Assembly (NCBI GenBank): GCA_902538915.1
Contig: CACBGZ010000002.1
Location: 27,329-91,328, forward strand
From: an uncultured Pelagibacteraceae bacterium
GTDB taxonomy: Bacteria; Pseudomonadota; Alphaproteobacteria; Pelagibacterales; Pelagibacteraceae
Direction: 5' to 3'
Length of the DNA stretch: 64,000 nt
The notes beneath the pieces are model-generated. The model was not told the DNA's origin. It was given only the letters and a program-made list of their open reading frames with translations, and ran no database searches. Position 1 is the stretch's first letter. Each line of letters starts with the position of its first letter. A program made the translations under genes and the position numbers. Shown here piece after piece: positions 42,962 through 45,301 of the stretch.

Positions 42962-44401
42962 TTAAAACCTTTTAGCTTTAAGAACTAAGAATGGTAAAAA
43001 AGTTGCAATTATAAAAGATAAAAATAACAAAGACTGTGACACAATAGGTGCAAATAATTCTTTAGACAACATAACACCAACTAATAAGCTTTTTGAAAAA
43101 TCAGGAGCTGGAAACATTAAAAATCCCCCTATTAATCCAGCAAAAATTGAAACATAAGCAGTTTTTTCATTTATGTGCTTATTATAAAAACTATAAAAGA
43201 CCGTTAAGACAAATGCACAACAAAATAAGTCAGCCAATAAAAAAAGATATAATATATCAAATCCTTTTGATGCAATAATAAAAGATATAAGAGATAAAAA
43301 TAATATTATGTATTTTGAAAAATTTAGACTTTTCTTTTTATCTAGATTAAAAGCTGCATTTCCATCAACTACAATAAGGCTTGATATTGCATTTACTAAA
43401 GTATCAACGGTGGAAATAGTAAGCGCTAAACCTAGTACAATCACAAAAAAAGATAAAAATTTTGTCTGTTCTTTTAAAAGTAATGTGAAAAATCCAAGAT
43501 CAGGGCGAGTAGTTGGGTCTAATGAAAAGGCGACCATTCCTGTAAAACCCATAAAAAAAACTACTGGTACGATAATAAAAAATGAAATTACTAAACTTTT
43601 TTTTAAAGTTTCAAAATTTTTTGCTGCATACACTCTCTGCCAATTACCTTGGTGAAATAAATTTGTTGCAGCAACGGCAATAAAAAAAGTCAAACCTGCT
43701 GTATAACTGGGCACATATGACAAACTTAAAAGTTGAGGATTTTTTTCTTTTACAAAGTCTATTGAAAAGTCAGATCCTATGAAAATGTTAATATATATTA
43801 AAGAGATCAATAATAAAATTCCAATAACTATCATTTGAATATTATCTGTGAATATCGATGCTCTTAATCCTCCATATAATGTATAGACAAGTGTAGATAT
43901 CAATACAATCAATGCTGTTACCCAAAGTTCTGTTCCAGAAATATAATTAATCAAAACTGCTACCGCAGTAACCTCTGCGCATAAAAAGATAAACATGTAA
44001 AATATTGTTAATAACAAAATAAGTTTGAATAAACTTTTTCCGAACTTTTTTCTCATAAACTCTATTAATGAAGATCCTCTAGGAAGTTCTTTTCTAATTT
44101 TTTTTCCAAGATATATTAAAAAAAACATTGGAAAAGCAGTTCCCAAAGAGTATCCAATAACAGCGCCTATACCTCCCCAAGTTGCTGCTGAGGCTGGTCC
44201 AAACAAAATCCATGCTCCTAAAGCAGATGCAGTTAAACTAGTAGTTAATGAGAAAACACCTATATTTCTATTAGCTGTAAGATAGTTATTTAATCCTTGA
44301 TATTTATTTGAATTATATAGACCCAAAATTACAAATATAAGACTAATAGTTATTACTAATATTAAAGATGTGGATTGTGTTAAAAAATATGTCTTTTCCA
44401 T
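42962..44401 (-). CDS. thiV: Sodium:solute symporter ThiV, thiamin-precursor uptake
   Basis: A 479-residue SSS-family transporter with about 13 membrane segments. 'GAWILFGPASAATWGGIGAVIGYSLGTAFPMFF' and 'YTLYGGLRASIFTDNIQMIVIGILL' are SSS motifs. A TPP riboswitch lies directly before its ATG, so it answers to thiamin pyrophosphate. SAR11 strains are known to need thiamin's pyrimidine precursor, and ThiV, a TPP-riboswitch-linked SSS protein, is the proposed importer. Exact cargo is not fixed by sequence. Confidence 0.88.
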   Translation of the reverse strand: MEKTYFLTQSTSLILVITISLIFVILGLYNSNKYQGLNNYLTANRNIGVFSLTTSLTASALGAWILFGPASAATWGGIGAVIGYSLGTAFPMFFLIYLGKKIRKELPRGSSLIEFMRKKFGKSLFKLILLLTIFYMFIFLCAEVTAVAVLINYISGTELWVTALIVLISTLVYTLYGGLRASIFTDNIQMIVIGILLLISLIYINIFIGSDFSIDFVKEKNPQLLSLSYVPSYTAGLTFFIAVAATNLFHQGNWQRVYAAKNFETLKKSLVISFFIIVPVVFFMGFTGMVAFSLDPTTRPDLGFFTLLLKEQTKFLSFFVIVLGLALTISTVDTLVNAISSLIVVDGNAAFNLDKKKSLNFSKYIILFLSLISFIIASKGFDILYLFLLADLFCCAFVLTVFYSFYNKHINEKTAYVSIFAGLIGGFLMFPAPDFSKSLLVGVMLSKELFAPIVSQSLLFLSFIIATFLPFLVLKAKRF

Positions 44402-44407
44402 TTTTTT

Positions 44408-44470
44408 CCCTTTCTGAATTACCGGACAGGTTCAAAGGGTTTATTCTCAGTCTATTCAGACACCCCTTAA
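44408..44470 (-). promoter_or_regulatory. TPP riboswitch controlling thiV
   Basis: On the minus strand the conserved THI-box segments appear in order: AAGGGGTGTC, ACTGAGA, ACCCTTTGAACCTG, then CCGGTAATTC. The P3 arm is short. The aptamer ends in AGAAAGGG, 7 bases before the thiV ATG, so the ribosome site is part of the 3' strand. This points to translational control rather than a terminator switch. Confidence 0.93.
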
Positions 44471-44478
44471 AATTATAA

Positions 44479-44956: not shown

Positions 44957-45044
44957 ATTTAAAGATTAACTATATTTCTGTTTAAAGCAAATTTAAAATT
45001 TCTATTTATAACTGATGATTTTTTAAGATGCGCGAATATTATAA

Positions 45045-45295
45045 AAATACCAGGTTGTATTCAAACATTTTATTTTAATTTTAATTAAATATATTCCTTG
45101 AATACAACCTACTTAGAACTTATTTTTTTACTAAGGAGGTTATTCAAATGAATCAAAAGCCACCTGAAACTTAGCTGGGTAGCTACATATCAAAACAACA
45201 ATATAAGAAAAAAATCCACTTGGATTTAAAAGCCAAAAAGGCGATATAGAGGAGCTCTTTTGGTAACTGAGCTAAAAGAGCGAACCTCTAACAAA
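45045..45295 (+). ncRNA. Candidate structured RNA / regulatory leader in a gene-free stretch
   Basis: The 345-base stretch 44957-45301 has no ordinary gene, but several inverted repeats on one strand. A 13-bp perfect repeat joins AGGTTGTATTCAA (45052-45064) to TTGAATACAACCT (45098-45110). Then come TAGCT-GGGT-AGCTA (45172-45185), AAATCC-ACTT-GGATTT (45212-45227), a weak GCC-AAAAA-GGC, and a long arm AGAGG-A-GCTCTTTT / AAAAGAGC-GAA-CCTCT (45248-45289). A possible -10 (TATTAT, 45037-45042) lies just before. AAGGAGGT at 45133 is the full anti-16S complement. Strand is inferred from this site. It does not match tmRNA, 6S, SRP RNA or RNase P by eye. Confidence 0.45.
45133..45174 (+). other. Perfect Shine-Dalgarno with an 8-codon ORF
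   Basis: AAGGAGGT, a 7-base spacer and ATG (45148) start an ORF of only eight codons, MNQKPPET, then TAG. In frame after the TAG there are 24 more open codons (from LGSYISKQQYKKK) to a second TAG at 45247. ATTCA-AA-TGAAT flanks the start codon, and ACCT in codons 5-6 could pair with AGGT of the ribosome site. This may be a leader peptide, a switchable start, or a gene broken by one stop. Confidence 0.4.
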
Positions 45296-45301
45296 AAAGA
45301 T

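Follow-up and report, generated by a model that had tools for sequence, protein, structure and literature searches.

Analysis of a 64,000-nucleotide stretch of a SAR11 assembly (G000; 0.95 Mb, 79% complete), referred to here as the window, identified a gene at 45131-45290 on the plus strand that is well supported as encoding an autonomous small RNA, with a predicted length of ∼160 nt and an uncertain 3′ end. The gene is laid out as a Shine-Dalgarno, a mini-ORF, an A-rich linker and three hairpins, a convergent neighbor lies just downstream, and covariance models R1/R2, with 100 copies aligned, describe it; copies occur in two genera. We consider it fairly probable that this RNA, with its own promoter, translated mini-ORF and three hairpins, works as an Hfq-free regulator gated by a ribosome pause at Pro-Pro-Asp/Glu; we infer its transcription, pausing and targets. 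No cells in the sea are more abundant than those of SAR11 bacteria, which have very few regulators, and a covariation-supported, undescribed RNA gene in cultured strains is a concrete candidate for post-transcriptional regulation in this group.

Divergent promoters and the predicted RNA start

The gene lies in a 345-bp spacer (44957-45301), the largest gene-free stretch of the window; a longer gap occurs only at 1-1969, the left window edge, where ORFs that extend beyond the window are uncalled. A sequence-only reading had drawn attention to this stretch and to a 13-bp perfect inverted repeat, a full Shine-Dalgarno, an 8-codon ORF and strong structure within it, and all of these observations held. 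The repeat consists of AGGTTGTATTCAA at 45052-45064 and TTGAATACAACCT at 45098-45110, complementary at 13 of 13 positions, and no further copies of its 12-mer were found in the window at 0 or 1 mismatch. Folded as RNA, the 251 nt reach -60.1 kcal/mol (z = -5.7; 0 of 200 shuffles equally low), an energy partly due to the inverted repeat, which is probably untranscribed. The same reading had supposed a single 250-base element with an RNA 5′ end near 45050; this view gave way to one of two separate parts, promoter DNA at 45036-45126 and an RNA gene at about 45131-45290, with the repeat providing two -35 sites.

Both arms of the repeat stand at a fixed spacing from a -10 box and are therefore most likely the -35 regions of two divergent promoters. 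On the minus strand (45036-45064), the -35 box TTGAAT (45064-45059) lies inside arm 1 and is followed, after a 17-nt spacer, by the -10 box TAATAT (45041-45036). On the plus strand (45098-45126), TTGAAT (45098-45103) lies inside arm 2 and is followed, again after 17 nt, by TATTTT (45121-45126). The pattern TAnnnT, which has a background frequency of 3.2%, was found exactly 17 nt from the TTGA of the arm in 100% of 135 copies on the minus strand. On the plus strand, 99% of the 77 copies with the inverted repeat have it at 17 nt, and the remaining 58 copies have it at either 16 or 17 nt. Arm 1 is near-invariant in 137 copies, whether arm 2 is complementary to it or not, and a free search found complementarity of arm 2, at 11/13 or more, in just 74 of these 137. 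The inverted repeat is not a conserved RNA hairpin, because arm 1 stays where arm 2 has lost complementarity; this interpretation was rejected with the complementarity of arm 2 gone in ∼40% of copies and arm 1 and both promoter boxes persisting.

We thus read 45036-45126 as DNA carrying two predicted divergent promoters, of which one serves the RNA and the other reads the opposite way. The promoter of the small RNA, putatively of the sigma-70 type, is supported by these boxes, and the predicted RNA start falls at about 45130-45134, at or just before the full Shine-Dalgarno. The minus-strand promoter points in the window toward a 59-aa gene (44956-44777), the protein of which matched no Pfam family. 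The sequence ACAACCT is identical after both TTGAAT boxes and suggests a common DNA-binding protein. A regulon of TTGAATACAACC sites was considered and rejected for the window, where a tolerance of 1 mismatch retrieves the two arms and nothing else. In one locus, L070, the promoter arms are 22 nt apart instead of 33, corresponding to about one helical turn lost.

The gene upstream is divergent in 63 copies and co-directional in 50. The minus-strand promoter is retained even in clades with a co-directional upstream gene, and an antisense transcript into the 3′ end of that gene is therefore predicted.

Occurrence and relation to described RNAs

Full or partial copies were found by DNA search in about 45 of 101 same-genus genomes. 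A pattern spanning the Shine-Dalgarno to the stop was searched in the genomes of 85,462 species, and among the matches listed, all were from Pelagibacteraceae or Pelagibacter/Pelagibacterales. A looser pattern, in which the reading frame, the last base of the second proline codon and the stop codon were left free, matched 111 of 297 Pelagibacterales genomes, once each and all in two genera, and the same pattern reversed as a control gave 0 matches in the 297 genomes. The covariance model first revealed the second genus, g233, with matches in 5/5 genomes (E 1e-7 to 1e-10). A class search outside the genus returned matches with E > 0.006, in which the anatomy was absent, and 0 matches were obtained in the viral contigs searched. 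The RNA is not universal, because even the covariance model found no match in six near-complete genomes from the genus of the window; about half of the near-complete Pelagibacterales genomes are without the motif. As judged from these searches, the RNA is single-copy, common but not universal, and restricted to Pelagibacter and one sister genus. The copies are phylogenetically related, so that all such counts overstate independence, and some copies were fetched with parts of the motif fixed.

A search of Rfam 15 gave 0 matches at gathering score in the window and eight homologous loci, and a lax search of the element returned chance matches only, below the gathering threshold. Elsewhere in the window, at 44390-44477 on the minus strand, a TPP riboswitch was identified that precedes the gene of a sodium:solute symporter (44401-42962; PF00474). 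It scored 52.2 bits (E 4.6e-10) and was missed by the default scan because this is just under the Rfam gathering score of 54.3. Genomes G412, G421 and G012, which we take to be those of HTCC1062, HTCC7211 and HIMB5, all carry a copy of the RNA. The HTCC1062 copy lies in spacer 762678-763012 of Table 1 of Meyer et al. 2009 (PMC2704228), and the G412 spacer reproduces the row exactly in its bounds (762678-763012), length (335), GC content (27.76%) and neighbors. That study screened spacers with more than 200 BLAST hits, and for this spacer it reports 76 hits and gives no motif (PMC2704228). The RNA matches none of the eight SAR11 motifs published there. As far as sequence comparison reaches, it belongs to no described class.

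The sequence-only reading had likewise seen no known RNA class, and it had proposed comparisons with Rfam and with published SAR11 candidates, a collection of homologs and an analysis of covariation. The comparisons upheld its view, copies were found in many other SAR11 genomes, and the hairpins covary far above controls, as described below. In the literature searched, no transcript evidence was found.

Hairpins, mini-ORF and neighboring genes

The predicted fold of the RNA into three conserved hairpins is well supported by compensatory changes. In hairpin A (45212-45227, plus strand; AAATCC-ACTT-GGATTT), 6/6 pairs are changed on both sides (alignment A4). The corresponding values are 2/3 pairs for hairpin B (45232-45242, plus strand; GCC-AAAAA-GGC, with GACC-GAAA-GGTC in the second genus) and 8/13 pairs for hairpin C (45248-45289, plus strand; AGAGG-A-GCTCTTTT...AAAAGAGC-GAA-CCTCT), which contains a conserved asymmetric internal loop. 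Across the 100 copies, standard pairs occupy 94.1% of pair cells, and 14/22 pairs are changed on both sides. Doubly changed cells number 198; shuffles give 53 ± 8 and slid controls no more than 30. When the second genus was included, 16 pairs and 127 doubly changed cells were counted, compared with 31 ± 4, and the covariation score was 0.398 versus 0.174. Fitting these alignments to the model favors structure; it is unlikely to be the sole cause of the covariation because of the slid controls and the very different second-genus sequences. Of the three or four further hairpins initially suspected, three therefore covary, and the fourth, around the Shine-Dalgarno, was rejected as inconsistent from copy to copy. 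In the sister genus (loci L191-L195), a further hairpin tends to be predicted immediately behind the stop of the mini-ORF.

The full Shine-Dalgarno AAGGAGGT is located at 45133-45140 on the plus strand, and GGAGG was present in every copy examined, including pattern-free finds. The mini-ORF ATGAATCAAAAGCCACCTGAAACTTAG at 45148-45174 on the plus strand (ATG AAT CAA AAG CCA CCT GAA ACT TAG; MNQKPPET*) is a real short ORF, and all 144 distinct copies read M-x(n)-P-P-[D/E]-T-stop in frame, with a single P in L050 alone. The stretch from the ATG to the Pro codons measures 3, 9, 12 or 15 nt, giving an ORF of 6-10 codons, and the N-terminal residues vary freely. Stop codons are TAG in 130 copies, TAA in 9 and TGA in 5, and variation is seen between CCA and CCG and between GAC and GAT. 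In the sister genus g233, MSPPET* with TGA is kept and the hairpin sequences differ. Translation of the mini-ORF is well supported by this pattern of conservation. The second proline codon is CCT in 144/144 copies versus a genomic 36%, and the stop is TAG in 90% of copies versus a genomic 10%, some of the copies having been fetched by a pattern that fixes CCT and TAR. No collection search demanded the reading frame, and a freer pattern and pattern-free finds give the same picture of the mini-ORF; in G706, the second proline codon is CCA. An RNA-level constraint most likely overlaps the peptide constraint here, because CCT and TAG are kept beyond amino-acid needs, and would partly explain the conservation.

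Apart from TGA stops, ACT-TAG and ACA-TAA are the only pairings at the ORF end, as noted for copies such as L048, L063 and L072, perhaps reflecting one clade event or an RNA-level link. Two other interpretations of the mini-ORF were rejected: sequestration of the Shine-Dalgarno by the CCACCT proline codons, for which the pairing probability exceeds 0.5 in 27% of copies only, and a longer protein running through the stop, the frame downstream of which is unconserved.

The excess of CCT and TAG, partly a matter of pattern choice and also seen with the freer pattern, and the bases after the stop, which are kept in Pelagibacter, would fit a non-coding structured RNA whose ribosome site is only a translated 5′ protector, the exact peptide being irrelevant. 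We regard this as unlikely, since the exchange of D and E, the three stop codons, the CCA/CCG and GAC/GAT variation and the length changes by whole codons indicate a selected peptide end. The C terminus PP[D/E]T, near-invariant in two genera, could also be that of a bioactive micropeptide (M...PPDT), the message of which would be stabilized by a structured 3′ untranslated region. However, such a peptide would be 6-10 residues long and free to vary in its first half, and the strong covariation and fixed position of the 3′ hairpins suggest more than a message, making this explanation distinctly improbable.

The nearest downstream gene, counted as an ORF of at least 60 codons, is convergent in 97/102 copies, with its stop at a median of 9 nt past hairpin C. 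These neighbors belong to at least eight unrelated families, which differ between clades. The one case tested with Pfam is a cytochrome c′, and from their sequences we read others as probable aminotransferase-like and methyltransferase-like proteins. The neighbor found in HTCC1062 (L072) agrees with the DUF952 annotation of SAR11_0785, a gene for which a 1.52-fold change is given at a late stage of iron limitation (PMC2864753).

Hairpin C adjoins the convergent stop codon and might thus be a terminator for the converging genes, with the rest of the element incidental. However, no consistent plus-strand T run was found after hairpin C (the longest within 20 nt is mostly 2-5, and the first 10 nt contain 3.8 T on average), and the conserved promoter, the ORF and the two other covarying hairpins would be left unexplained, so that a mere transcription boundary is very improbable. 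Hairpin C was also rejected as an intrinsic terminator, the hairpin being present and the U run lacking. The combination of Shine-Dalgarno, short ORF and hairpins has the anatomy of a cis-acting leader-peptide attenuator of a neighboring gene, and Pro-containing leader peptides such as MgtL exist (PMC6460261, PMC11282234). This explanation is nevertheless contradicted by the convergent orientation and unrelated families of the next genes, with a co-transcribed regulated ORF downstream absent; a cis leader is excluded for nearly all copies, and we consider an attenuator extremely improbable. A decayed short gene or chance structure, as the interruption of the ORF after 8 codons and the AT-rich genome might suggest, is of negligible probability given the stop after (P)P[D/E]T in 144/144 copies, an ORF length that varies without frame loss, the empty reversed control and the strong covariation. 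Among the alternatives first offered for this element, a structured small RNA with homologs therefore stands, and the RNA is neither a leader nor a broken gene because the downstream gene is convergent and the mini-ORF is kept in frame.

Proposed working and comparison with known systems

Pausing on the mini-ORF is suggested by work in Escherichia coli, in which EF-P-dependent pauses include PPD and PPE, the former having been observed in the pausing set alone (PMC4140641). PPD or PPE is present in 143/144 copies of the mini-ORF and PD in one. EF-P is encoded in 18/18 genomes, including genomes without the RNA, and Hfq (PF17209) was found in 0/18 Pelagibacteraceae genomes, of which 17 have a completeness of 90% or more; with EF-P everywhere and Hfq nowhere, both were rejected as correlates of RNA presence. 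We favor a regulatory RNA set by ribosome pausing because of the PPD/PPE pause motifs, the presence of EF-P in all 18 genomes and the position of the motif near the 5′ end.

In the proposed working, Pro-Pro-Asp/Glu would make the ribosome pause in an EF-P-type manner about 20-30 nt from the RNA 5′ end, and the paused ribosome would fill the whole 5′ part of the RNA. Ribosome occupancy would thereby make RNA stability or availability depend on the state of translation. The linker and hairpins would form the effector part, whose trans action on other RNAs or proteins would need no Hfq. Comparison of the copies supports an RNA that runs up to the stop codon of the convergent gene and so has nothing to control in cis. 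A further possibility, which we offer tentatively and regard as rather doubtful, is a free-standing ribosome-arrest RNA, the working form of which would be the RNA with a ribosome paused on the PP[D/E]T-stop mini-message. It would serve as a trans-acting translation sensor, responding to EF-P or to the supply of proline or aspartate/glutamate tRNA, in bacteria from which Hfq and most transcription regulators have been lost.

SgrS/SgrT and RNAIII/hld are small RNAs of dual function, each encoding a peptide as well. They resemble the SAR11 RNA in being independent small RNA genes with a translated short ORF and a structured remainder, and here an independent transcript is predicted from the fixed promoter spacing and the convergent neighbor. 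In contrast to these RNAs, the SAR11 peptide is much shorter, no Hfq is present in the genomes checked, and there is no known target. In ermC-type leader ORFs, a stalled ribosome stabilizes the RNA, and a ribosome pause near the 5′ end is similarly proposed here to protect the RNA. Unlike these leaders, the SAR11 RNA has no resistance gene downstream and a different pause motif, and its stabilization is a proposal only.

The locus is of the same kind as the candidates of Meyer et al. 2009 (PMC2704228), namely a GC-enriched intergenic spacer. When compared with leader-peptide attenuators, the element has, as judged by comparison of copies, the translated short ORF (144/144 in frame) and lacks the co-directional downstream gene. 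The mgtL-type proline leader peptides read by EF-P in Salmonella and E. coli (PMC6460261, PMC11282234) share with the SAR11 RNA a short ORF translated close to the 5′ end, proline and acidic codons, and hairpins downstream. In contrast to mgtL, the SAR11 RNA has consecutive Pro-Pro followed by D/E, T and stop, and it is a free-standing RNA gene without a downstream gene to control. If the proposed working is true, ribosome pausing would be used here outside its usual setting as the leader of the next gene.
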